A stretch of DNA of 64,000 nt from assembly GCA_029891345.1 (NCBI GenBank), contig CM057002.1:20226295-20290294 (forward strand). The letters are read 5' to 3'. Of the stretch, positions 1 through 61,241 are shown in pieces (position 1 is the stretch's first letter; the number at the start of each line of letters is the position of its first letter). The position numbers and the translations under genes are program-made. This DNA is from Dryococelus australis. Taxonomy: Eukaryota; Arthropoda; Insecta; Phasmatodea; Phasmatidae. A model generated the notes under the pieces. It was not told the DNA's origin. It made no database searches and saw only the letters and a program-made list of their open reading frames with translations.

Positions 1-523
1 ATATTGTGAAGCGCTAAGGGCGGCCCAGACAAGCGCACGACGCATTATCGTAGTCTCTAGGCGCAAATCACTCTAGGCAGAAAAGTATATTGTGAAGCGC
101 TAAGTGCGGCCCAGACAAGCGCACGACGCATTATCGTAGTCTCTAGGCGCAAATCACTCTAGGCAGAAAAGTATATTGTGAAGCGCTAAGGGCGGCCCAG
201 ACAAGCGCACGACGCATTATCGTAGTCTCTAGGCGCAAATCACTCTAGGCAGAAAAGTATACTGTGAAGCGCTAAGGGCGGCCCAGGCAAGCGCACGACG
301 CATTATCGTAGTCTCAAGTAGCAAATCACTCTAGGCAGAAAAGTATATTGTGAAGCGCTAAGGGCGGCCCAGACAAGCGCACGACGTATTATCGTAGTCT
401 CTGGGCGCAAATCACTCTAGGCAGAAAAGTATATTGTGAAGCGCTAAGGGCGGCCCAGACAAGCGCACGACGCATTATCGTAGTCTCTAGGCGCAAATCA
501 CTCTAGGCAGAAAAGTATATTGT
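1..523. repeat. 86-bp satellite array, six copies
   Basis: Six head-to-tail units start at 1, 87, 173, 259, 345 and 431, followed by a few bases of a seventh at 517. Each begins ATATTGTGAAGCGC (ATACTG in copy 4) and includes GCACGACGCATTATCGTAGT. Copies differ at only a few positions, so the array is young or homogenised. It probably continues leftward beyond the window. No coding frame is evident. Confidence 0.97.
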
Positions 524-1799: not shown

Positions 1800-2097
1800 T
1801 ATTATAAATCAAATTTAATTTATTACAAGCGAACTTGCTTCATCCTGAAATATGTTTTCCGAAATCAGCCACAATTGACATGGAACTGTCCTACGAATAT
1901 TTTAAAACAGAAATGAAATGCTATAAGAATCGTTTAAAATACTGTTACGTGCTTGCTGTTTTGCATTGCTGCCGTTGCCCGTCCAGCTCGAGCGAACGGA
2001 TCAGCGTGTCAAGGGCGTGCGATAACCCGAGGAGAGCGCGGAGATTTACAAAGGAGCGCCGCCTCGATAAGTCAGCCTGTCGGGACTCGTGTGTGTA

Positions 2098-2275
2098 GTT
2101 GTGTAAAGGGCTTTTTAGCGTCCCCCTGTTTTATGCTTGAAAGCTTAGCAGGGGACGGCTTACAGACTAACTTATAACCTAACTTAAATTAACACCCATG
2201 CCCGGGATTCGAACCCAGAGCCTCCCGCACCCCAGATCGGCGGTGCACCAACCGACTGCGCCACGGGAGGTCGGC
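2098..2275 (-). mobile_element. tRNA-derived SINE family S2, copy 1
   Basis: Read on the minus strand, the right end begins with a tRNA-like head. It has a box A-like GTGGCGCAGTCGGTTGG and a box B-like GGTTCGAATCC, followed by a tail containing the AAGCCGTCCCCTGC-type segment. A second copy in the same orientation is at 8188-8366 with the same head and tail. The promoter boxes mark a Pol III retroposon rather than a working tRNA gene, because the tRNA arms do not fold completely and the tail is shared between copies. Confidence 0.8.
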
Positions 2276-2531
2276 TTAGGGAATCATGCGTTCCCGACCT
2301 TCAGCAGATTAAATTTCTGGGGTTAACGTTGCAAAAATGTTCTCGTCGTCGCCCTGGCCTCTCTCAGCGGGACTCGAGTCGCGGGGAACCTTCTAGATGG
2401 AGTGACGGGGAGGGAGTGAAGTCTGTGGACTGCGAGCATCGGTACAGGGAAGGGTGAAACTGACGAGCAGGACTACCGAACTGGATGCGTGACAGACATT
2501 TGTAATGATGGCAATAGACAGATTGAATAAA
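2276..2531. other. No gene seen
   Basis: Moderately GC-rich unique sequence between the S2 SINE and the next MITE. No frame or repeat recognised. Confidence 0.5.
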
Positions 2532-2948
2532 GGCTGTTCACGTTAAAGTGAGCACTTTAGAAATGAACCTTAGAAAAAAATTAATGTCCCAGCGTGCATA
2601 TATTTTAATGGGTACGCTGAGTGGCATTCACCCAGCAAAATTGGTAACAATCGATGGAAATTAGACATATATCTCAAAGTTGAATAAATAGAGTTAGGTG
2701 ACCATTTGTGATAACTTAAAATAATTTAATTCGATTTCTCTTTTTTCTTTAATGTACAGAAGTGTATTAATTAGCAGATTTGTAAAGCATACCCTTTTTA
2801 TAATAATGTTATGGTTCCACTTGACAGACGCACGAATGAAGTGATGAGGCTCACGGGAATGTTAATTTTACATAAGGCGATGGAATACACAACGTGCATA
2901 CAAGTAGATCTTAATCAGGGTTTTCAAAAGTGCTCATTTTACCGTGTA
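2532..2948. mobile_element. Family A MITE (TA target), about 417 bp
   Basis: Begins GGCTGTTCACGTTAAAGTGA, then carries the family interior (the CCCAGCAAAATTGGTAAC motif, the GCACGAATGAAGTGATGAGG motif) and ends in a degraded copy of the right repeat after TCAAAAGTGCTCATTTTACC. Over a dozen copies in this window share these parts in either orientation. The best-preserved are flanked by TA, as expected for Tc1/mariner-derived MITEs. No coding capacity. Confidence 0.9.
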
Positions 2949-3008
2949 TAATATATGTGTAAGTAATGAGCGTGAATCGACTGGTGCCGTTATAAAGTCA
3001 GTGATAAG

Positions 3009-3302
3009 TAGAGACGTGCAAAATTCGCGTTATTATTTCAAGACAGACTAGACTTCAAACACTTGTGATTTTGTATGGAGTTTGTCATTGGATTACTGTT
3101 TTGTCCAGACACGCCCTGGACGGTTTTGGCCAATAGGAATCCACTAACAAGAGGTTGGCCCAATCACGTTCTACCAAGACAAAAGGAAAATGGGTCCTCA
3201 CTTGTGGAGAAACCAATAAACTAATCGCACTGGCATGAATATGCATAGGACTATGAATTTTAGCGTGCTGCCAGAAAATAACGTGAGTTTCGCAGGTCCC
3301 TA
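3009..3302. mobile_element. Family G TIR element (hAT-like), copy 1
   Basis: The ends are TAGAGACGTGC and, inverted, TAGGGACCTGC, with homology continuing into AAAATTCGCGTTATT. The flanks are GTGATAAG on the left and GTGATAGG on the right, an 8-bp duplication with one mismatch that fits the hAT target pattern (T at 2, A at 7). The second copy is 17354-17614. At 294 bp it is non-autonomous. Confidence 0.8.
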
Positions 3303-4865: not shown

Positions 4866-5611
4866 CTTGTATTTTATATTTACATCTGTCAAAAAATCTC
4901 GAAGGACAATGATTTCATTCTGAAAATGACGCGGTGAAGGCTTTAGAGGCGATTTTAAAGCGCATATCAAGAAATTAATTCCAAGGCATCTTCCGAAAGT
5001 GCATGAGAAGATGGAGCAAGTGTATTTCTCTTAATGGTATCTATAATGAAAGGGAGGAAATTACTTTTGATTGATTATTTGGTGATAAATGTTTCATAGC
5101 TTTATTCCAAGTACTTAACCAAGCAAATCTTGTATATAGGCAGACATTTGATCGATGTTAAGTTTTAATCAGTTGAATATATTAGTTTTCACACTTGCCG
5201 CAGTATTTTTAAAACAATTTTCAATTAAATATTTCCTCTGAAGGAGGAAATTGTCGATACGGAGCACCCAAACTGCTTGTGCCCCTTCCCCTTATCCTCT
5301 TCCTCTGGCCAATTTCAAATATAATTACCAAAAGCAATTACAAACTCTTTATTTGTGAAGGAGCTATTTGATTAAGGTCATCGTTTGAAACCGCCATTAA
5401 GTCTTTTTTCGTACGGCGTACATTAGTTTAAAATGAAATCCACGTTTACATTCAAGATTTTTTTTCACAAAATAATCATACATGTATAAAAGTGTTGACT
5501 AAATACGCGTGGAAATTACGTCAGCATGATCGTCGCCTTTAATTATTTACAAATATATAGATAACGAGATAACAGACCGGCATTAGGCCTATTTATCCTC
5601 ACGTTATTTTA
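4866..5611. other. No gene seen
   Basis: AT-rich, apparently unique sequence with only short frames. Nothing recognised on either strand. Confidence 0.5.
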
Positions 5612-27462: not shown

Positions 27463-27631
27463 GAAGATGCTGTTGAACCAAAAACAAACTATCTACCTGC
27501 TCCAGCCTCGAACAGTAATTTTTCAATTTCGCCAATGTGCATGATTTTTACCGACGTGACCGAATTTTGACACTTGATATATGTTATTCATGATATAACA
27601 ATTCACACTGAAACTATAATGTGAGCAGACT

Positions 27632-28193
27632 ATGCTTAAATACATGCATCCCTGCTTAAATATTATTTTTGCGTGGTGGCAAATTAGGCTTCGGTATCAC
27701 ATGTTTATGCACGACAAGTTGACACATTTGAGGAAGACTTTGCAGCCAGCCAGAATTGCTTTTCTGCTTCGCGGCAACTCCAATGCTCTGAAAAGCGAAT
27801 TATTCTGTTCTGAAAATACTGATTTTACGAAAAACGATTCTCTAGCTCGCATGCTCGGATTTGAAAATAAATCTTATGAAATGGACAAATTACACGAGTC
27901 TATGCTCCCTGTAATCATCTTGTCCATAAATGTAATAAGAATTATGTGCAACCTAATTGGTGACTCATATCTCCACACGAAACATAGTCAGACATTTCAC
28001 GATTTCTCGGCCTTGTTTCCGCCCAGTTTTAAGCTCGTCGAGGTTCCTAAAAACGCTCATTTACACACCAGTCATGACCAAGAGAGTACAAGAAGTTGTG
28101 AGAATCGTAGATCAAGATATTTGTTTAATATATTTTAGAGGTGAAGAAATTACATTACATTTACATTTGAAGAAAGTTGAGGTTGAATTTTAA
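27632..28193 (+). pseudogene. Capsid-type gene remnant of fossil 1
   Basis: The plus strand encodes SLARMLGFENKSYEMDKLHE, then a segment with INVIRIMCNLIGDSY and PPSFKLVEVPKN, and further on VRIVDQDICLIYFRGEEITL. This order of motifs (a short LGF motif, an INxIRxxCN segment, a PP.xK..EVP segment and a closing VDQDG.LI.FRGE-like segment) is what I recall from capsid or penton-like proteins encoded by Polinton-like elements and adintoviruses in arthropods. The assignment rests on recall, not a search. The gene is a fossil, broken at least once. Confidence 0.5.
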
Positions 28194-28369
28194 AAAATAG
28201 TATAAAAAAGGTCCCTTGCAGAAAATGCAAGCCCAGTAAGTGCCAGACTCTCAGTGTGTAAATACGTTAAAAATTCATGTTATCTTAAACTGTAGAGTTT
28301 TTTTCATTTGAAAGATGTATAGATGCTAAATACTTAACATAGACGACCAAGTCAGCTACGAAGGTAGAA

Positions 28370-28621
28370 TCACAAAGATGGACTGCCATATTTATGTTCC
28401 ATATATTCCAGGTCCATATACGTTATCGTCTGAGATTCGCATAATGGTACAAAACCATGTAACTCGTATTTAAACTTCTGTGGCTCCATTACAAATCCTA
28501 ATGGCGCAACACCTACAACCACCAAAATAATCAGAAATGGCGTACTCGAAATGATAAATAAAATTTCTATGAGCTGAATGGAAGTGAAGAGCTGTAGGGT
28601 CATAGGTTTGAAATATACCAT
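28370..28621 (-). other. Hydrophobic frame inside fossil 1
   Basis: The minus-strand frame has one strongly hydrophobic segment at about residues 18-45 (IEILFIISSTPFLIILVVVG and onward), so it would be membrane-spanning if made. It belongs to no family I know and could be a remnant of an element gene or chance. Confidence 0.25.
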
Positions 28622-28670
28622 AAGAAACTGAAATATACCATAAGAAACTGAAATATACCATAAGAAACTC
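28609..28670. repeat. 20-bp tandem repeat, three copies
   Basis: GAAATATACCATAAGAAACT occurs three times in tandem, followed by a short (TC)n run. Confidence 0.95.
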
Positions 28671-29221
28671 TCTCTCTCTCATGTGCAATCAACTGCCTGT
28701 AGCAAAAATGGTCGGGTGGGGGATCGAAGCCGAATACGAAGTACCAATTTACGATGGGGGAAAATTGGAAATTTTGCTTTCCGTTATCGATGTTGCTCTG
28801 TTTCGAAGAAGATTACAAACACATAATTAATTCAAAGCACGAGTAGGTCATACTTTTAGCAAACACGAGAATGAATGCCACCCGAGATGTGAGCATGAGT
28901 TTCATTTATACAAATATTACCCAAAAGATAACTGGTTGTAGGTTCTCCTGCAGCAACTTTCCGTTGCTCTAAGCAACCTCATGATGACATTCTGCATTTT
29001 ATTTCTAAGGTAAACATTTTCATAATATTTTTAAACAGGAAAGATAATACTTTAAAAATACTTTAAAAGACAATAATACTTAAAAGTAAATAATCACCTT
29101 AAAAAATTTACCCATGACTATAACAAAAAATCTAGAAAGAAAAATACTTAACAAACAGTTATGACTATATGAAACACTGTTATTGTATGTCTATGTCTTG
29201 TGGAAAAAAATTCTTGTTATG

Positions 29222-29923: not shown

Positions 29924-30174
29924 GTCTCACACTGTCAAATTTTTGTCTTCAAATATATTTCACAATTAAATTTGAAGACGAAAAATGGCCGTCAAATTTT
30001 TCCTTCTAACAGACGGTATCAAATAATATTGCATGTGTTTGAAAATGTGTCACACTGTCCAATTTTTTATTAAGGTTATCTAATATGAATTTTTTAGACT
30101 ATTTTTTAAAAGTTAGATATTGATGATGTGTTTCCATGCAGTAAATTACAGGAAGAAATGAAACGTATGTTGTG

Positions 30175-31395
30175 AGTAGTAGGATTTAGAGAAGTTGGTG
30201 ACAAGGGGATCGGTGATAGGATTAAGATTCGGGAAGCCGCCATCTTGTTACGTCAACCGACCGCCATATTGGATGTCACTGACCTTGACCGTTAATCTTG
30301 ACCCCGAGGAACTCTGACCTCAAAAAACACTAAAAAACCTTAGAAGATTCAAAAAAATTCCGAAAAAAAATTAATACTAAAAATTATTTTTAAAATATTT
30401 ATTACAACATTTGAAAAGTATACTCAGAAATGACTCCCCCCCCTATATGGTAGAAACCCCCCCTCGTGCAAAAAATAAGCCCCTAGAATCCAATATTCGT
30501 CAATTTAATTAATTTGGGGGGCTTCCTTCGGACCTACAGAGCAGTGGCGGCCATATTTGTTTTATAGGCATACCCTATGCCAAATATATACTAGGTATAG
30601 AGGATAGGACTCAGAAATCTTGTGTACATATTGTATGCAGATGACCTTTGACCCCGAACATGACCCTTGACCTTGGAAATGCAAAAATACATTTTTTAAA
30701 TCACAAAAAATTTAAAAATCGATAAAAAATTGATAATAACATCTTTGTTAAGAAAATTAATTTAAAAACATTTTAAAAATTTAAAAAAATCATTTTAAAA
30801 AATATTTTTATAAAATTTATTTAAAAATTTGCCAAATTAAAAAATTCTTTACCTCCAGTGGCCATTTTTACCTTTTCCCCTCGGGATTTCCCTTTTTCCC
30901 TACAAAAAATTCCATAGAAAATTATAAAAAATTTAATTTAAAAACTTAAATTTCATGAGATCTCCCCCTCCACCACACCTCCAATTACTCACCTCTGTTC
31001 AAATCCAGCAGACAACTGACTCCATCGCACCCACTCCCCTCACCTATATTCATTCTGCAATCTTTTATTTTCGTTCGCCATTTGTTTACATGCTACTAGA
31101 TACAACCATATATGTTTATATGTTACTGGAGGCCGCCATCTTTGTGTATATGTTACTGGAGGTGGCCATCTTGATTTTGTCGTTCATCATTTGTTGACAT
31201 GCTTCTGGAGGCAGCCATATTGTGTTTATATGTTACCGGAGGCCACCATATTTGGTTATTCATTCATCATTTGTTTTTACATTACTGGAGACCGCCATCT
31301 TGGTAGGTATCATCCTTCCTCTATATTGAAAGACAATGACATGATATTGACCACATGACCTTGAATGACCTTGAAAACAAAAGCTCGAAAATAAA
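30175..31395. repeat. Left long terminal inverted repeat of fossil 2
   Basis: Pairs with 33735-34904. It carries repeated GGCCGCCATCTT-type motifs, many AAGGTCA/GACCTTGACC motifs and poly-A/T tracts. The shared GACCTTGACC strings read as nuclear-receptor half-sites, which may be coincidence of the repeat. Confidence 0.85.
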
Positions 31396-31859
31396 TTCGT
31401 AAAAATTCACATACTGGATGCCAAGCAAGGTGTCAGCCCTTATATTTATAGGCAAAAAAATACATGAAAATTTCCACCCTATTTAAACCAGATGTTTCCG
31501 ATCAGCAGTATATCTACAAGCATAATGCGAGATATATAAATATTTATTTCGTATTAAAAACTTAAAGCTATTTAATTTAAACAAACCTTTTTTTATTTAA
31601 TTATATATTTGTTCATACAGTACAATACTTTTTAATAAAATTTATTTCTTTACCTCTTTAATTTTGATTGTATTCCAACTAAGTAGGAGAACATGAAATA
31701 AAACACAATTTTATTCACAGGCATTTCTTTATTCAATTAAATAATTACAGTCACTAACACCCTCAAAAAATTACAATATTCTTTAATATGTCTAAGTAAA
31801 CTGTTTCTACGGCTGATCTGCTTACCGCACCTGTCACACTAATATGACATCCAACAGAG

Positions 31860-32262
31860 ATTGTTTAGTATAATTAGAGCGCTCATGTCGCTGAGCATTG
31901 CTGCTGTGTGTGAAGATCTTTTCACAGAAGTGACACTCATAATGTCGCAATGGTTCGGCAGATGCTGCTGGAACAGAGGTCGATGGTCAAGTTGGCGATG
32001 CCAATGGATCTGCCGTAGGTAACCCGCTCATAGAAGTCATTGGCACTGTCGACGCCATGCCTGAAGACGTCGATGGCTGAACTGCTGTAGGTGACCCACC
32101 CGAAGACGTCGACGGTGCTGTCAGCACCATGCCTGAAGAAGTCGATGATACTGCACTGGTGGAAGTAGATGCTGCTAGTGACGTGGTCATCGCAGCTGAA
32201 GAAGTCGGTGGTGAGAAACCATTGGTGGCCAATACCCACTCAACTTTAACGTAACTAGCCAT
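31860..32262 (-). pseudogene. Zinc-finger / Ser-Thr-rich protein remnant
   Basis: The minus-strand frame 31937-32262 starts MASYVKVEWVLATNGFSPPT and continues as a Ser/Thr/Pro-rich low-complexity tract. Immediately downstream a C2H2-type finger pattern is visible: HYECHFCEKIFTHSSNAQRH. A near-identical start (MASYVKVEWILATNGFSPPT) occurs on the plus strand at 33517, in an inverted copy. It is a remnant of a gene of fossil 2, probably a DNA-binding protein. Broken at least once. Confidence 0.5.
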
Positions 32263-32370
32263 GGATGAACGTAACTAGCCATGGATGACCTTGCGTGTAA
32301 GCTAGCCGAGACGATCCACCTTTCACGACAGCCGCTGTCAAAGTAAGACTCTCAGTTTACCTCCCAACTG
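32055..32370. repeat. Inner inverted repeat of fossil 2, left
   Basis: Pairs with 33411-33718, including GACGATCCACCTTTCACGAC inverted on the right. The two arms enclose the central single-copy part. Confidence 0.85.
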
Positions 32371-32529
32371 CTTATATACGAGTAAGCAAACCCATGAATT
32401 CATATTAGGGTTGAACCAATCTTATTGCGAAAGCCAACCAGCCAATCACCAACTAGTCAATCACCAACCAGTCAATCATCGAGTTGTCACGTGATTGCAG
32501 CTGGCCAGTCATGTAAAAGCACTGAGACA

Positions 32530-33410
32530 TCATGTGCATGAGTCGGTCTCTAGGTTTTGAGGAGGTTGAGGAATGAGGAAGAGAAGGAGTATGAGGAGGA
32601 TGAGGATGAGGCAGAGGAGGCAGTCTGAAGGAGAAATTAGTACAGATTCTCCGCGGAGGGATACAAGGAAAATACTTCCAAAAATCTGATATAAGCTAGA
32701 AACGCGCCTCCTTTGTTCCATTCTGCATTGCGAATTTGCTGTGTATGATTCCGAGTGCCTCTCCTCTACTGTCGTCTCAAGTTTATCAACAAGTATATTC
32801 GAGTTTTCGGTAAACATGTAGCCGGCGTTCTCGACATATTCTACCTTCTTCACATCACTTGTCGAAGGAAACTCGTTGGTGAAATGTGTGGAAACGTCAA
32901 GAGGATCATCATCGTCTTCAACACTATCACTATCGTCATAGTCATCATCAATGCTGTCTTCATGATCTTCACTTCCTGCTTCATCCTCATTATCAAGTTT
33001 ACTTTTCTTTGTACAAGGAGTTGTATGTTCATCAGTATTTAGAGCTGATGGTCGTTTATTTCAAACTTGTCGACTTCACCCGAACGTTTTGTAATGTACG
33101 TTCCGCACGAACCGATCGTGCTGAACTCATTTTGTCTTTAGCATTAACTGTTTCCTCATAATCGTCTGCGGAAACAGTGCCCATCTATGTAGCAGGAAGT
33201 ATTGATGAAACCATTTGCTGGCTCCCAGTAGACGAACCTTTGCTGCTCTTGGTACGTTCCTTCATTGTATCGCCATCACAACCGCATGGGACCAATGTAA
33301 TGCTTCATCGTGCGAAAATGACTCTTCGTGCAGGTCGTTCTCTCATGTCGGCGAGCATTTTGACCATAGGCGAGATCTCGATCGCAGTATCGGCACTGAC
33401 GGCAAGCAGT
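32530..33410 (-). pseudogene. Zinc-finger and acidic-tail gene remnant
   Basis: On the minus strand a C2H2-like pattern (CRYCDRDLAYGQNARRHERT) is followed by a segment homologous to the plus strand at 55440-55900 and 58960-59480. That segment includes a run of Asp/Glu codons (EDHEDSIDDDYDDSDSVEDD-like) and a FPSTSDVKK-like motif. Three copies in the window show that this is one gene of the element family. Its acidic tail suggests a DNA- or chromatin-associated role, but that is inference. Broken in several places. Confidence 0.6.
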
Positions 33411-33718
33411 TGGGAGAAGTAAACTGAGAGTCTTACTTTGACAGCGGCTGTCGTGAAAGGTGGATCGTCTCGGCTAGCTTACACGCTAGGTCATCCATGG
33501 CTAGTTACGTTCATCCATGGCTAGTTACGTTAAAGTTGAGTGGATATTGGCCACCAATGGTTTCTCACCACCGACTTCTTCAGCTGCGATGACCACGTCA
33601 CTAGCAGTATCTACTTCCACCAGTGCAGTATCATCGACTTCTTTAGGCATGGTGCTGACAGCACCGTCGACTTCTTCGGGTGGGTCACCTACAGCAGTTC
33701 AGCCATCGACGTCTTCAT
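33411..33718. repeat. Inner inverted repeat of fossil 2, right
   Basis: Inverted partner of 32055-32370. It carries the MASYVKVEWILATNGF frame on the plus strand and a doubled CATCCATGGCTAGTTACGTT motif. Confidence 0.85.
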
Positions 33719-33734
33719 TTTAACTTGTTTTACA

Positions 33735-34904
33735 TTTTTATTGTTGAGCTTTTGTTTTCAATGTCATTCAAGGTCATGGGTTCAAGGTCATGGTCATTGT
33801 CTTTCAATATAGAGGATGGATGATACCTACCAAGATGGCGATCTCCAGTAATGTATAAACAAATGACGAATGAAAAAACAAATATGGTGGCCTCCAGTAA
33901 TTTATAAACAAAGATGGCTGCCTCCAGTAGCATGTAAACAAATGGCGAACGAAAATAAAAGATTGCAGAATGAATATAGGTGAGGGGAGTGGGTGCGAGT
34001 TCGTCAGTCGTCTGCTGGATTCGAATAGACGGGAGTGACTGGTTGTTTTTTTTTTTTTGGGTGGGGGGGGGGAGACCTCAGGAAATATAAGTTTTTTAAT
34101 TACATTTTTATAAATTTTTCAAGGGGATTTTTTTTTGGGAAAAAACGGAAATTCCGAAAGGGAAAAAGGGAAAAATGGCCACTGGAAGTAAAGACTTTTT
34201 AATTAGGAAATTTTTAAAATAACATTTTATAGAAATAAATTTGCTAACGATTTTTTTAATTTTTAAAATCGTTTTAATATTTAATTTTTAATAAGATTTT
34301 TTTTAGTTTTTTTAATAGATTATTTTATTTTTTGTGATTTTTTTCTAGATTTTTTGAATATATGCATTTTTAAGGTCAAAGGTCAAAGGTCAAAGATCAA
34401 GCGTCAAAGGTCATGGTCGGAGTCAACGTCATCTGCATACTATATGGATGCAAGATGGCTGAGGCTAATATCTGAGGCCTATCCTCTATATCTTATATCG
34501 ATTAGGCATAGGGTAATCCTACAAAACCAATATTATTGCCACTACTCTGTATATCTTTAGGAAGGGCCCCCCCCCCCCAAATTTATTAAAGTGATGAAAA
34601 TTTATTCCGTGGGTTTTTTTTTTGCACGAGGAGTGCTTCTACCATTCAAGGAGGGGGAGGGAATGGGTCATTTCTGAGTATCCTTTTAATAATTTTTAAT
34701 AATTTTTTCCGAATTTTTTTAGAATTTTTAAAGATTTTTAAAAGTATTTTTTGAGGTCAAAGGTCCTCAGGGTCAAGGTCAAGGTTAAATGAAAGGTCAA
34801 TGTCATACAATATGCCTTTCGGGTGACGTAACAAGATGGCGGCTCCCCGAATCCTAATCCTATCCCCGATCCCCTGGTCCTCAACTTCCCTAAATCCTAC
34901 TACT
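33735..34904. repeat. Right long terminal inverted repeat of fossil 2
   Basis: Inverted partner of 30175-31395. A poly-T/poly-G stretch near 34047-34070 is specific to this arm. Confidence 0.85.
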
Positions 34905-35223
34905 GTTGTGATTTACCACCCGCCTTTTTCAGACAAAAATGACGGTATTTATGACGTTTCGATGATGTCACAACTGCCAAACTTTATTTCACCAAACGTA
35001 TTGAAAGCAGGTTGACAAAAATTTGATAGTGTGACGTAGGCTTAAGGAATTATATAATTCTTAATTACCACCCTTTTTATACCGATTAACCAATCGAGTA
35101 TCTATTGTATAATAAGATAACCTAACTTTTAAGCTAAACATGACGTTGCCACCTCGTAGGCCTGATCTAACGAATTGCCGGTTCATGTCACAGCAGTCGG
35201 TGAATCACGAGGTATAGGGGGGG

Positions 35224-54402: not shown

Positions 54403-54651
54403 GTGGGAAAGACTTTGATTTTTTCCATCAATACGATGCAAGCCAATGATTGTACGATGTCTGTTGTAGATCTTGCCTCTACATATGTACCTTCTCCCAC
54501 TGCTGGAAATTTGCACGGAAAACAGTGTTGCTACTGTGGGAAAATCTTCAGAAACAGCTGCCATGCCCGTCGACGTGAGAGAACGACCTGCGGAATGAAA
54601 AGTTCGAGTGTGACTTTTGAATGCCAATTCTGCCATAGACACTTTTTATAA
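54403..54651 (+). pseudogene. Zinc-finger region of fossil 3
   Basis: GKQCCYCGKIFRNSCHARRR then ERTTC, and later FECQFCHRHF: two CxxC half-fingers. The first matches the RRHERTTC and RRRERTAC patterns of fossils 2 and 4, so this is the same element gene. DNA-binding is likely but not shown. Confidence 0.55.
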
Positions 54652-54789
54652 GAGTGATGCGTTAAAGAAACATTCTAAGACTTGTAGCGATGGTTCTCTG
54701 CGAGTACAATCGGCTCCATCTGCTCCAGAAGATCGTAGTGGTAACATACGGATAGACAAGCAAGATGTTACTCTACCCGTACGCATCCA

Positions 54790-55400
54790 TGCTTAAGATG
54801 AAGCTATCTCGCACGGATCGCGACATGGAAGCCTATTTCAGAATACTGTGAGCTGCATCATCGCGGGATCATCGGGTCGTGGCAAGACATGCGTCCTACT
54901 GAGCCTGCTGGAAGAATAGAACAGTCTTCGGTTCGAGAACGTGTACCTGTACTCAAAATCACTTCAGCAACTGAAATACCAGCGACTGGCACGAGTACTG
55001 CAAGCCGTGGAAGGCTTGGGTTATTTCCCATGCAGTGATAACGAAGCCGTCGTGCCTCCGGGCGAAGCACTGCAAAACTCGATATTTGTCTTCGACGACA
55101 TTGCCTGCGAGAGACAAACTTGCATTCAAGCATACTTCAGCGTGGGTCGACACGCGAACGTTGACTGTGTGTACCTCGGCCAGACTTATTCGCGAAAATG
55201 CAAACATGTTGGTGCTGTTTCGCATGGACGATACGAATTTACGTCATGTTTACGATGATCATATTAATACGGACATACCTATATCAGATTTTGAAGATGT
55301 GTGTGCCTTGTGCTGGAAAGAGAAATATGGATTTTTGACGATCGTTAAGGACTGTCTGCTACATAAGGGAAGGTACAGGCGTGGTTTCGATCAGTTCATC
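54790..55400 (+). pseudogene. Packaging-ATPase-like region of fossil 3
   Basis: A P-loop GSSGRGKT is encoded at 54865-54888 after hydrophobic SCIIA. A Walker B-like IFVFDDI is at 55082-55102. Further along are FRMDDTNLRHVYDDHINTDI and DCLLHKGRYRRGFDQFI. The order P-loop, FDD, then a C-terminal DDTNL..VY.DH and KGRYR.GFD segment is what I recall for the FtsK/HerA-type (A32-like) DNA-packaging ATPases of Polinton-like elements and related arthropod viruses. Such ATPases drive the genome into the capsid. A fossil, broken at least once. Family assignment from memory. Confidence 0.65.
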
Positions 55401-55916
55401 GCTTTCTGTCGAGAGGGTTCGTCTACTGGGAACCAGCAAGTGATGTCATCAATACTTCCTGCTACATCTATGGGTACCGTTTCCGCGGACGACAATGACG
55501 CCACAGTTAATGGTAGAGTCGGAGTGAGTGCAGTCCAGTCGGTTTGTGCGGAAGGTACACTTGCAAGATGTTCGTGTGAAGTCGAAAAACTTCAAAATAT
55601 ACGGTCATCAGTTCTAAATACTGGTGAACATACAATTCCTGCTACACAGAAAAGTAAACTTGATATTGAGGATGCAGCAGGAAGTGAAGACGATCATGAA
55701 GATAGCATTTATGATGACTATGACGATAGTGATAGTGTTGAAGACGATGATTATTCCCTCGATGGTCCCACACATTTCCCCGACGAGTTTCCTTCGACAA
55801 GTGATGTGAAGAAGACAGAAGACATCGCGTATACTGACGATATGTTTACCGAAGATCCCAACAAACTTGTAGACACACTAAAATATTTACTTGTTAAGCA
55901 ACAGCGTGGGGATTAA
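55400..55916 (+). pseudogene. Acidic C-terminal region of fossil 3
   Basis: Part of the 293-codon frame ending at 55916. It contains SSTGNQQVMSSILPATSMGT and an Asp/Glu-rich tract (DDHEDSIYDDYDDSDSVEDD), then FPSTSDVKKTEDIAYTDDMF and a closing EDPNKLVDTLKYLLVKQ. It is homologous to minus-strand 32530-33190 and plus-strand 58960-59590. In those two copies this region follows the zinc-finger part directly, without the ATPase-like region. Confidence 0.6.
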
Positions 55917-57168
55917 TCGACCATGAAAGAGGTGGTTTCGATCATAAGAGCACTTAAGGATCGAGGTTATATCAAATGTTGGGGTGAAGTGCTTTCCTCT
56001 GAAAATGTATTTACAAAATAATAATAAGGTATTATAAAATTATTTGTTTTTCTTAATTTTTGAGTGCCGTATCCTGCTATCGGCCTTTAAGTTTTTAATA
56101 ACAACAATATGTATTAAAAATATTTAATAAATTAAGCTTGCAGTCATTCATGCGTTATACTTGTAGTTATACCATTTATTCGAGAAAAAAAACATAGAAT
56201 GGAAAACAGCAATAGTCATCACCTACTAAAATGGTGGACGTCTACCAAGATGGTGGCCTCCATTAATGTATAGACAAATGACGAACGAAAAAAAATGGTT
56301 GCCTCCTGTAACATATAAACAAAGATGGCTGCCCCCAGTAACATATAAACAAATTACGAATGAAAAAATCAATATGGAAGAATGAGTATATGTGAGGGGA
56401 GAGGAGGCGAGGGAGTCAGTCGTCTGCTGGCTTCGAACGGAGGTGAGTAATTGGCGGTGTGAGGGAGACCTCAGGAAATTTAAGTTTATTTAAAATTTTA
56501 TAAATTATGTTTAAAGGAACATTTTTAGGGAAAGGGGGAATTCAAGGGAAAATGGGAATAATGGCCGCTGGGTGTAAAGAGTTTTTAATTTAAAGAATTC
56601 TAAAAGGAAATTTTACAAAAATAAATTTTTATGAATTTTTTTAAAAACAATTTTAATAAGAATTTTTAAATAAATTTTTAAATTGATTTTTATTTTTTTG
56701 TGAATTTTTGTGATTTTCTAGATTTTTTTTAGATTTGTTTGATTTTTGCATTTTCAAGGTCAAAGGTCATAGGTACTGATCCTTGTCTCCTGATCACCTG
56801 GGCCTGACCCTGGGTCGCTGATCTCTATTAGCATTTCTGAAAAAATGGGTAATTTCTGTAGAACCTTTTAATAATTTCTTAGACAATTTTTAAATAATTT
56901 TTGATAATAAATTTTTTCGTAATTTTTTTACAATTTTTTGGTATTTTTCTGAAGATTTTTTTTAGAATTTTTGAATGTTTTTAGTGTTTTCGAGGTTAAA
57001 AGTTCTTGGGGTCAAGATCAAGGTCAAGGTAAAAGGTCACACGGGTTGGGGGTGAAAATTCATTGACTTCCAAGATGGCGGTCGAGCGACGTCACAATAT
57101 GGCGGCTCCCCCGACTCCGGCTCCGATGCCCGATGCTTTTGTCCCCAAGATCCCTAAATCCTAATACT

Positions 57169-58726
57169 TATATACAATGATCCGAGTTCCAGTCCCGCGC
57201 TAGCCGCATAGAAGAATGCTTTAGATTATTTTTTATTTATAAATGCGCGCAGCAATGAATTAGAAGATTTAATAAGCACAAGAAAATAAATAATTAACGT
57301 ACATTGATTATTAACATATATAAAGAACTAAAATACCTGCAATTGACGTTCAGAGGAAATGAAAATTGGCCATGTAACACTTTTTTCTCAAGCCACACTT
57401 TGCAGTTCAATAAAAGAAATTATATTCTGCAAAATTGCCAGATACAGCTCAGAATTCCTGAAAATCAGGCGGCTGTTGTGCTTTCCTTTAACGTACCAGG
57501 CTTTAGAAATAAAGGCGCAATAAAAAAAGTACCCCACGAGAAAATAAAATTGAAAAGCTTTCGTGAGTAAAGGGCTATCGGGTGCAAAAAGAAGAGAGAG
57601 AAAGATTTGACAGTACCACGTTTCGCATCACACTTTAGGAATGTCAAAAGTGATAGATACGGTTGACGTAGCAATGCGTTGTATCGGATAACAAAGGGAA
57701 CGCTCTGGTATCCCGTGTCGAGGTGCGAAGGCCTCCAAATTCAAACGCGATAAAAGGAAGTGCCCTGAGCGTGCTTGAGTGATGCAGGAGTGGCGCCAGA
57801 TATTTCAGGCCCTCCACATGTCCTGTCTCTCAGAAATGACTACACAAGACTTCATATACAACTGGCCACACCCGAGGTGCCCACCACGACTCATTAACAC
57901 ATTCGGAATCACTAGGGACATGTGCTTCTCGCTAAAAAAAAAAATTCAAGACCAGTTGTTCTCCAAAAAGACTCTTGTTCATATGCACTTTCGTGGTTGG
58001 ATGATTTAAAAAATCACGTGCCTCAAGTGTCTGTCCATGAGCCATGGACGTTCGGTATCGGAGTACTTTATTGCGATTGGCCCAGTCAGATAAGTACATG
58101 TGTTCTCACGTAGGATATTGAAGTCTAGCATGACCATAAATATTTTCGCGAAAAACACCTGTCCCTATTAATCACTGTCTACAATTTAGATGTCCAAAGA
58201 AAAGCTTTCGTAAAACTGCCATTTGAAATCAGTAAATACAACAATTTGAACGTCATTCTACTCTTATATTGTTTCAATTATTTCCTTATAAAATTTTAGT
58301 TATTTAATAGATTTACGTGCGATCCATGCAATACGATATTTAAATATACTTTCAGGCATATGTGTATATAAATATATAAATTAAAAATAATATTGTATTC
58401 CCATATTTTTGTATATATACACAATTACTTATAAAACTAATTCGAATTATTTTATATTTACTAATTTATATACCTATACATAATTATGTATAAATTAATT
58501 TAAACAATTTTATATTACTATATTTATGTAGGCATGTTCATAATTATCTGATTATTTTCTTGTGGCGCGAACGAGTATGTGGGTTTTCTCAGAATGCTCC
58601 CATATTTTTTTTCCTTATAATTTTTATAATGGGAGTACTTTTGTGAGCACAAGCTATGCTCTTTACTGCAAAAAGAATCATATTTATATAGAAAAAAAAT
58701 TACTGTTGACGTTCTGACACCGTGAG
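57169..58726. other. No gene recognised
   Basis: After the end of fossil 3. AT-rich from about 58140 with long A/T runs. Frames at 57304-57570 and 57779-58113 have no recognised domain. Confidence 0.45.
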
Positions 58727-59590
58727 ATGAACATCGATTTGGAAGCAATCTCTCGTCATTACGCGAGAATGAATGGTGAATACGAAGGCCCGCCTTCAAC
58801 GATCATGGAGTCGCGACCTGCAAAATCGTTAACTGGTCGTCCCCAGTGCCGATTCTGCGATCGAGATTTCGCCTTTGGTCAAAATCCTCGTCGGCGTGAG
58901 AGAACGGCCTGTACCGGGAGTCCTTTTCGCGCGATGAAGCATCACGACACTGGTCCCATGCAGTTTGGGCAAGGAGATAAATTGAAGGAACATACCGAGA
59001 TCTGCAAGGATTGGTCTACTGGGAGTCAGCAAGTGTTGCCGGCAATACCTCTTGCTGCGTCGATGAGCAACGATTGGACAAGTGATATTGTGATGAGCAA
59101 GTTAATTCTAAAGACAGAATGAGTGCAGTAGAGTCGGTCTACGCTGTACACTTCTCAGACGTTCGTGTGAAGTAGACGAACTTCAAAATAAACCGTCGTT
59201 GGCTCTTAATACTGATGAACCTATAACTCCTGCTGCAAAGGAAAGCAAATTTAATATTGAGGATGAAAGAGGAAGTGAAGACGATCATGAAGACAGCATA
59301 GGTGGAAATGAACATTAAGTCAGTGTGATAATGTTGAAGACGATGATGGGTTTTTATCGATGTGACACCCCTCTCCAACACATTTGCTGCAATGAACGAT
59401 AAGAAGAAGACGGAAGACGCCAAGAATACTGGCTACCTATCTCCCGAAGACCCGAATGAACTTGTTGATAGACTCAGATATTTGATTGGTCTTCAAAAAC
59501 ATGGATATTTCTCGCGCATTGTTGACATATCTTCGATTATTAGTAAAAGTAAACTGAAGGGACAGGGATATTTCGCTCTGAAATTTTAAT
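58727..59590 (+). pseudogene. Zinc-finger and acidic-tail remnant of fossil 4
   Basis: The 131-codon frame from 58727 reads CRFCDRDFAFGQNPRRRERT then AC..SPFRAMKHH, followed by KDWSTGSQQVLPAIPLAASM. Downstream, frames with an acidic tract and EDPNELVDRLRYLIGLQKHG match the C-terminal end of the fossil 3 gene (EDPNKLVDTLKYLLVKQQRG). Same element gene as in fossils 2 and 3. Broken in several places. Confidence 0.6.
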
Positions 59591-61241
59591 TACAATATAG
59601 TGATAAATTGTTATATAATAATTGTTTTTATTTTATTTTTGTGTGTCGTATCTTCACATCCCTCACAACATTAAAGTGGCGATATGAGCACACGACATTA
59701 ACGGAAAGATCTGCATATAGAATGATAAAAAAGACTCAAGTATAAAAATGCATGGATAGTTGACTACATACGAAAAATTCATTCTGTCGACATGTACAAA
59801 TTAGGAGACAGTTGTACGAACGAAATTTCTATACATTTGGGTGGGGAACGAACTAGAAGATTTATCGAATGATCTATCGTAGGATTAGGATGATCGGAGA
59901 GTTGGGATTGATCCAAAGACCAAAGATTGGGATTGATCGAAGGATTGGGATTGTGGTGCCGATTGCGGTGCTGACTGCGGTGCTAAGTGCGGTGCTGATT
60001 ACGTTGTTGATTGATCAAATTCTGAAAGTTTGATCATAAGATTGATATAAAAATACGTCTATAATTAAGTTTTAATTGTTTATAATTTTTTGGGAATTTT
60101 TTTAATGTTATAAAAGTCTTTACATTTTATTTATGAGTGCCTGGTTATCCAAGGTCATGGTCACGGGGTCAAGGTCACAGATGTGAGTTCAAGGTGAAGG
60201 TCACAGATGTGAGTTCAAGTTGAAGGTAATCCAGATCTAATATGTTGATTGGAGTCATCAGTATCACATAGGTTTTGAAAATGTAAGCAAATGACAAACG
60301 AAAAAACCAGTATATTGGGTGGAGTGCACTCGTCAGAACGAGCAAATTTGAGTGGGTAGGGCAGGGTAATGTCATCTAATGGACGTGGGGCATGCCCGAA
60401 ACCTCCGAAAATTTAAGTTTTTAAGAATTAAAAAAAATTATGAAAATAATATTTTTATTAATTTTTTATAAATCCTCAAGAAATTTTTGGGATTTTGACG
60501 AATTTTTGGGTTCAAGGTTAAAAGTTGTTCAGGTTAAGGTCAAAGGTCGAGGTTTCCCTGATTAAAGATGGCGGTAGTAGTCAGTAACGTAATATGCTCG
60601 CTGTCTTTAATGAATTTATTCAGTTTTTACCATTTTCCTCGAGTTTTTGTTTTCAAGATCATCCGAGGTCACGGTTATAAGGTCATGGATAAGGTCACCT
60701 GGGTCCAACAGTGGGGGTGGGTGACGTCATAATATGGTGGCTGGTCGGTTCCAGTCCGTCATCCACTGTACCGAACATTTAAAGTTTTAATTTTAGAATT
60801 TTTTCAAATGAATTTTAAATAATTTTTTGTAAATATTAGGGGATTTTTGGAATTTTTTGCGTCCAAGGTCATTTAAGGTAATGGGTTAAAGGTCACCGAC
60901 ATCTAACATGGCGGACAAGATGGCTGATTGTCAGGTTTGACTCCAGACCATGGACCCTGTGTATCGATTTGGCATACCTATGCCTATAAAACCAATCCTT
61001 CCGATGGGATGAAAAGTGCCCTTTAGGTGATCGTTTTGCAACTGGGGGGAAGGGGAATATAGGTGCTTTTTGAGCGACAAAAGGGCATTTTCTAGGAAAG
61101 AAGGGAAATTTTCAGGGAACAGGAAAATTTTTATGGGGAAAAAAAAAAAAAAAGGAATTTTAGGGAAAATGACAGAACATGAACAACTCCGAACTCTTAC
61201 TCACCATCCCCTTGTCCCAATCTTCTCCATTTCTTACTACT
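58727..61241 (+). mobile_element. Polinton-like element fossil 4, right part
   Basis: The right end TTTCTTACTACT (inverted AGTAGTAAGAAATGGAGAAG, then GGGACAAGGGGATGG) matches the left end of fossil 2 (AGTAGTAGGATTTAGAGAAG, GACAAGGGGATCGG). The stretch from about 60100 shows the same composition as the long terminal repeats: repeated AAGGTCA/AGGTCAAGGTCA motifs, GACGTCATAATATGGTGGCT and AACATGGCGGACAAGATGGC. Zinc-finger and acidic-tail remnants lie to the left. No left terminus. A diverged fossil, several breaks. Confidence 0.68.

Follow-up and report, generated by a model that had tools for sequence, protein, structure and literature searches.

Does a short element with the ends of a Polinton represent a mobile class that spreads with borrowed proteins, or is it the one-off remnant of a full-length insertion? 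The question arises from a 64,000-nucleotide stretch of the genome of the phasmid Dryococelus australis (contig CM057002.1, positions 20,226,295 to 20,290,294; hereafter the window), in which an initial annotation recognized such an element and put forward both possibilities. Polintons, or Mavericks, are presented in the available text of a study on vertebrates as large, self-synthesizing, virus-like elements of fairly constant size, with vertebrate copy numbers that are mostly low (PMC8097293). We searched the genome (3.4 Gb in 646 contigs) and sampled copies of the element, fetching 20 regions around matching ends, eight around its core (L034–L041) and, later, a few single regions. We favor, with a probability of about 0.83, the interpretation that the window element belongs to an internally deleted, non-autonomous class of Polintons mobilized in trans.

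Short copies share ends, a core and a deletion junction

The window element bears AG/CT ends with an (AGT)n repeat, a perfect 6-bp target duplication (chance probability at a given position, 1/4096) and long terminal inverted repeats, all of them Polinton features (Table 1). Self-comparison of the window recovered the inverted arms at E = 2.5e-179, far above chance. The sequence thus bears out the hallmarks listed in the initial annotation, along with its estimate that terminal repeats form about half of the element (2,408 of 4,730 bp). Its claim of arms longer than 1 kb also stands, with their limits corrected and an inner inverted pair set apart from them. The element is shorter than an autonomous Polinton (about 15–20 kb) and has no packaging ATPase, the ATPase-like domain being missing from between the retained flanking parts of its gene. 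The annotation had further described it as having no visible polymerase, integrase or capsid gene. This agrees with the absence of polymerase matches from the window at 1e-5 (queries were open-frame pieces of five genome loci) and of matches inside the element to capsid homology queries from gene-bearing copies; integrase was not searched for. The element is not empty of gene sequence, as scraps of a zinc-finger/ATPase-like/tail gene are present.

In coding copies, a zinc finger, an ATPase-like domain and an acidic tail follow one another as one gene, a model drawn from a relic in the window (54472–55976, all three parts), L013 and L015 (the last two) and L025 (the first two). The window element, L024 and L034–L041 lack the middle part: their zinc-finger stub leads straight into the tail, at one shared position, and coding copies align to short copies only from this junction onward. 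All nine fetched core copies besides the window element contain the deletion junction (9/9), as do a further core copy in the window and two relics beside the element of L010. Genome-wide, a 30-nt probe allowing up to three mismatches located the deletion junction at 1,781 places (940 + 841; reversed control, 0), and a degenerate 31-nt probe located the intact junction at 807 (394 + 413; control, 0). The resulting ratio of about two to one is rough, as the probes differ in degeneracy, and 1,781 is a count of junctions and not of complete short elements. Direct repeats were considered as the cause of the ATPase-like deletion and were not shown to be. Among the 100 intact-junction places listed are 13 exact matches, spread over 3.4 kb, that belong to one tandem array (G000:C2:4263554-4266982), where spacings are multiples of ~68 bp.

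The core itself is widespread. Among its 40 scored places (the best 40 of 8,433 candidates, window included), 27 span at least bases 1–1019 of 1021, and the 26 outside the window element are 80–85% identical to the window core. With the left 332 bp of the element, 42 stretches matched, distributed over 40 scored places (the best 40 of 2,053 first-look candidates), two of which are the element's own ends; the best match elsewhere, at 77%, was L009, a carrier of a capsid gene. Both ends were recognized in 10 of the 20 end regions, with one end within the slice in the other 10, and in two of the eight core regions (L035, L040). Together with L042 and the window element, this yields 14 both-ended elements of 568 to 8,379 bp. 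Eleven have perfect 6-bp duplications: the window element (GTTGTG), L009 (AGCCAG), L010 (CTTGTT), L011 (AGCACG), L014 (GTGACA), L016 (TAGGCC), L019 (AATATA), L020 (CGGCTG), L024 (AGTGCA), L040 (AGTGAT) and L042 (GACTTA). Two more match at five of six bases (L028, TATATC/TATATA; L035, GATGGC/GATGGT), and one fails. In L016, L019 and L020, the duplication matches only if one end is allowed an additional AGT-like unit or two, as slips of a jumping-back start would produce. Four of the 14 (the window element, L024, L035 and L040) combine the same core with both ends at 3.7–4.7 kb and have different duplications; with the recurrence of the deletion junction, they support the mobile short class over the one-off, of the two possibilities in the initial annotation. 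L014, at 568 bp, was considered as the founder of a miniature class, which found no support, there being no other full-length match (best 40 of 4,262 candidates).

A coding function of the retained core is unsupported, as mismatches among 10 short copies show no third-position excess. By codon position (1/2/3), they amount to 0.170/0.180/0.158 in the zinc finger, 0.184/0.117/0.096 in the middle read in the same frame and 0.122/0.085/0.091 in the tail; when short copies are set against coding ones, the tail gives 0.190/0.162/0.240, a mild third-position excess. Judged from these patterns, the gene scraps appear to behave as passengers.

The initial annotation had named the contiguity of the two flanks in a relative lacking the insertion as the point on which its reading would turn. 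Contiguity was found in paralogous form, within the same genome, for both L010 and the window element, the latter with a caveat of ~310 bp. The joined flanks of L010 match uninterrupted sequence across the joint, end to end, at window positions 58737–59712, and are also uninterrupted in L013, L015 and L023; in nine core copies, the match reaches 34–36 bp beyond the joint. The left flank of the window element is an abundant repeat. In one uninterrupted relative, L044, this flank leads into a single GTTGTA and then ATTTA, as it does in the window after one GTTGTG. Of the 38 relatives listed, eight continue into the right flank, with order and strand preserved, across a gap of ~230–320 bp; the remaining 30 are listed with no right-flank match. 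The window target looks contiguous, apparently with a separate length difference nearby.

Matched ends, palindromes and age

We infer mobilization in trans from the shared ends and the absence of genes; the common junction, the differing duplications, the lack of a third-position excess and the existence of gene-bearing elements with such ends complete the evidence for our interpretation. The ATPase-like domain would have been lost from an ancestral coding Polinton, and the copies examined would have gone on to lose its polymerase, capsid and other genes while keeping both terminal repeats. Full-length relatives would then supply the borrowed proteins: a protein-primed polymerase, which would initiate on the AGT repeats and displace one strand as it copies, and an integrase making cuts 6 bp apart in the target. 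As a molecule replicates, one of its ends could be corrected from the other, and ends could now and then be swapped with co-replicating molecules; the two ends of a copy would then agree, and those of its sisters would differ. Members with palindromes would stem from fold-back replication.

Over the terminal 30 bp of the 14 both-ended elements, identity averages 0.877 within elements vs 0.619 between them, a value reached in none of 100,000 permutations, and over 210 bp the nearest neighbor of 18 of the 28 ends is its own partner. The four both-ended sisters have core distances (Kimura two-parameter, K2P) of 0.147 to 0.186, yet their terminal 30-mers are just 0.34 to 0.70 identical. Across seven sisters, identity is ~0.88 in the core, 0.56–0.65 at 201–600 bp from the left end, a gap-rich stretch in which the alignment is less sure, and ~0.7 in the outermost 200 bp. 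Ends that match within a copy and differ across sisters suggest end correction in the molecule combined with end exchange between replicating molecules; rapid change of the ends is an alternative account of the unlike sister ends.

Long self-inverted stretches, the longest 60–83% alike, occur in L010, L011, L016 and L019. The 100 intact-junction places listed additionally include six opposite-strand pairs 1.3–2.0 kb apart, all six ordered minus then plus (6/6). In one of these, L043, arms of ~2.1 kb at 85% identity mirror the tail and ATPase-like parts around a zinc-finger centre, with an end at 5158 and the left end beyond the slice. Fold-back copying of one end would leave such mirrored pairs.

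The terminal arms of the window element differ at K2P 0.153 (1,072 aligned sites, gaps excluded), close to the mean of 0.171 between the cores of 10 copies, as expected if the two arms started out identical when the element inserted and the sister copies spread during a single period. This comparison bears on an explanation that we consider unlikely, namely that the ends of a copy match through host gene conversion between its arms after insertion and not through replication. The inner 312-bp inverted copy shows that recent arm exchange can take place in the chromosome; the arm divergence, dated for the window element only, is instead that of drift without conversion. The inner pair stands at K2P 0.016, and in nine core relatives (L024, L034–L041) the unbroken match to the window element ends at the border of the inner copy, on which ground we regard that copy as a later change private to this element. 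Going by divergence, it is much younger than the original arms, and we take the window copy for an old fossil in which the inner copy arose much later.

We extend this interpretation only tentatively to a satellite class in the full sense, in which gene-stripped Polintons might replicate as linear molecules by a helper polymerase, swap ends with their helpers, form fold-back palindromes and act as defective interfering genomes of the Polinton. If so, end repair, end exchange and jumping-back slips would be readable from integrated copies as a fossil record of replication.

Gene-bearing relatives and competing explanations

Ends of this family flank recognizable Polinton genes elsewhere in the genome. 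L009, 8,379 bp long with both ends and a perfect duplication, has two open pieces that encode a double-jelly-roll capsid protein (PF21738, 1.8e-54 and 5.1e-25). It also carries a phospholipase A2 domain (PF08398, 2.4e-7), an ATPase-like gene recognized through homology to L025 and others, and a weak match to an adenovirus core protein under the curated cut-off (PF05829, 0.0039). Five proteins of L009 had no match in PHROGs; the capsid piece, used as a lone query able to reach only close relatives, found none among viral contigs, and gave two matches only among solved structures (E 0.14 and 0.15). Of the single-ended regions, L013, L015 and L025 carry the ATPase-like gene on the inner side of the end; L025 adds capsid homology, and L023 has the tail only. 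Capsid, ATPase-like and polymerase queries matched nothing within the slices of L017, L018, L021, L022 and L026. L027 has one end, homology to polymerase loci 6.6–8.4 kb away (best E 6e-38) and a weak ATPase-like match. The genome contains 54 PF03175 matches, and the ATPase-like piece gave 150 scored matches (the best 150 of 22,499 candidates). A polymerase match near a family end on contig C9 was rejected as a link to a helper, the end belonging to a separate 3,049-bp element, L042 (GACTTA).

What weighs against a trans-mobilized short class concerns the state of the copies, their insertion sites and the missing helper. Both ends were recognized in only four of 10 core copies (the window element, L024, L034–L041): L034, L037 and L041 have the left end only, L036 a weak one and L039 none, and the end of L038 lies nearer the core than in other copies. 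In five of the 10 (L034, L036–L039), homology to the right arm of the window element is lost ~120–240 bp from the core, earlier in L038; these copies may be truncated, interrupted by nested insertions or of a longer form, and the 1,781 junction places may include longer or truncated elements. These observations favor a scenario in which the ATPase-like deletion arose in otherwise long, mobile Polintons and single copies became short later and independently, and the junction count, carrying no length information, is compatible with it. We nevertheless think this scenario improbable: four copies have ends, arms and core in common at 3.7–4.7 kb, and none of the eight core slices (8/8) contains a capsid or polymerase match.

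As for insertion sites, L012 lacks a good duplication (CCCGTT/TCCTTT), that of L028 sits inside a TA repeat, and the target repeat in the window is without ~310 bp present in L044, starting ~5 bp right of the insertion. For 10 of the 28 ends, the nearest neighbor over 210 bp is another element's end. Codon neutrality is mostly a reflection of decay after insertion. The ATPase label derives from weak P-loop matches in L025 under curated cut-offs (AAA_22, 3e-4; Pox_A32, 0.004). No complete helper, with polymerase and integrase between two ends of this family, was followed along its whole length, no search having been made for integrase. L009, whose end is the best match to that of the window element, has no polymerase match; the end and the polymerase homology of L027 could belong to two elements, and three pieces of L027 had no Pfam match by themselves.

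That the window element is a one-off, a full-length Polinton that inserted and lost its middle through host deletions, is very improbable. Its private 312-bp rearrangement and the stop codons in most polymerase matches of the genome would suit such a history, but the same junction recurs genome-wide and in every core copy fetched, and the four both-ended short copies combine that junction with independent insertions. Least credible of all is an ordinary cut-and-paste or foldback family with look-alike ends and no Polinton ancestry; long arms and palindromes occur in foldback-type elements too, but ends like these flank capsid, phospholipase and ATPase-like genes, the core is itself part of the ATPase-like gene, and the end motif and 6-bp duplication fit Mavericks as described in the available text of PMC8097293.

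Relation to known systems and neighboring features

The likeness of the short elements to Polintons lies in their ends and in a residual gene akin to those of gene-bearing copies in the same genome. The end motif, 6-bp duplication and inverted repeats are shared with vertebrate Mavericks, for which the available text of PMC8097293 describes an (AGT)2//(ACT)2 end motif with a role in 'jumping-back' and 6-bp duplications. The same text gives about 17 kb with about 10% variation, names 287 loci in axolotl as its highest number, and takes strong purifying selection as a sign of particle formation. The short class differs in each respect: the window element is 4.7 kb and has no capsid, ATPase-like or polymerase match, the deletion junction was located 1,781 times, and no third-position excess is seen in the gene scraps. 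In size, the copies resemble the Mavericks of Mayetiola destructor, whose consensuses of 600–4500 bp are called fragmented with accumulated deletions; unlike here, the text available from that report describes no both-ended class with a shared junction (PMC8504770). Searches by phrase, title and abstract start, with most subscription journals and the transposon databases outside their reach, found no non-autonomous Polinton or Maverick class.

The short Polintons also parallel miniature inverted-repeat transposable elements and other non-autonomous cut-and-paste derivatives in being short, retaining both ends, containing no intact gene that we could see, reaching high copy number and presumably moving in trans. 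They differ in that the parent is self-synthesizing and virus-like and in that ends are matched within copies and differ between sisters. Adenoviruses and other protein-primed linear replicons give rise to defective and palindromic genomes through internal deletions and end-duplication palindromes, and correct their ends. The short Polintons share internal deletions, one-end palindromes and, presumably, end correction with such defective genomes, but are integrated, duplication-flanked chromosomal copies. If the class is mobile, with ~1,800 junction copies, then Polinton replication and integration can be parasitized and DNA of particle size is probably unnecessary for spread inside a genome. 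Polinton replication would also have left testable marks: ends that agree inside one copy, divergent ends around a shared core, and one-end palindromes.

Table 1. Features of the short element and of its surroundings, in window coordinates
Feature	Position	Strand	Remarks
Left target duplication	30169–30174		GTTGTG
Short Polinton-like element	30175–34904		4,730 bp; start AGTAGTAGGATTTAG, end CTAAATCCTACTACT
Left terminal inverted arm	30175–31405	+	1.23 kb; first bases AGTAGTAGG
Second, weak zinc-finger remnant	31864–31938	-	E 4e-4
Inner inverted pair, partner	32062–32373		98% to 33404–33717; private to this element
Shared core of the short class	32380–33400	-	1,021 bp
Acidic tail remnant of the zinc-finger/ATPase-like/tail gene	32737–33220	-	broken frame
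Deletion junction, zinc-finger stub to acidic tail	33232–33241	-	ATPase-like domain missing
Zinc-finger stub of the same gene	33279–33416	-	N-terminal remnant, by homology
Inner inverted copy	33404–33717		~312 bp, replacing sequence present there in sister copies
Right terminal inverted arm	33728–34904	-	1.18 kb; last bases CCTACTACT
Right target duplication	34905–34910		GTTGTG
Capsid relic	27725–28879	+	in pieces, 1.3 kb left of the short element
Polinton relic end	54472–57168	+	broken-frame zinc finger, ATPase-like part and tail; family end at 57168
Further core copy with deletion junction	58718–59571		weak family end at 61241
Tandem repeat	1–523		period ~86 bp, from window self-comparison

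The capsid relic in the window is homologous to the double-jelly-roll capsid gene of L009 and to the unnamed gene beside it; an open piece at this relic (27620–28138) had no Pfam match. In L019, the middle of the both-ended 5-kb element (1921–3226) contains two inverted pieces homologous to a frame beside polymerase in L031 and L033, and L019 is therefore a short element of different make-up. Two pairs of ATPase-like matches with equal scores lie ~23–25 kb apart on opposite strands (G000:C3:107700739 / 107724089 and C6:137286864 / 137311660), possibly as large inverted duplications. Frames resembling retrotransposon polyproteins were noted by eye in the single-ended regions L021 (617–2459) and L026 (1960–2715). 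A dispersed repeat of ~430 bp has at least 11 copies in the window, at 2528, 10652, 13379, 22993, 24572, 40689, 41406, 43907, 50799, 52653 and 61949.

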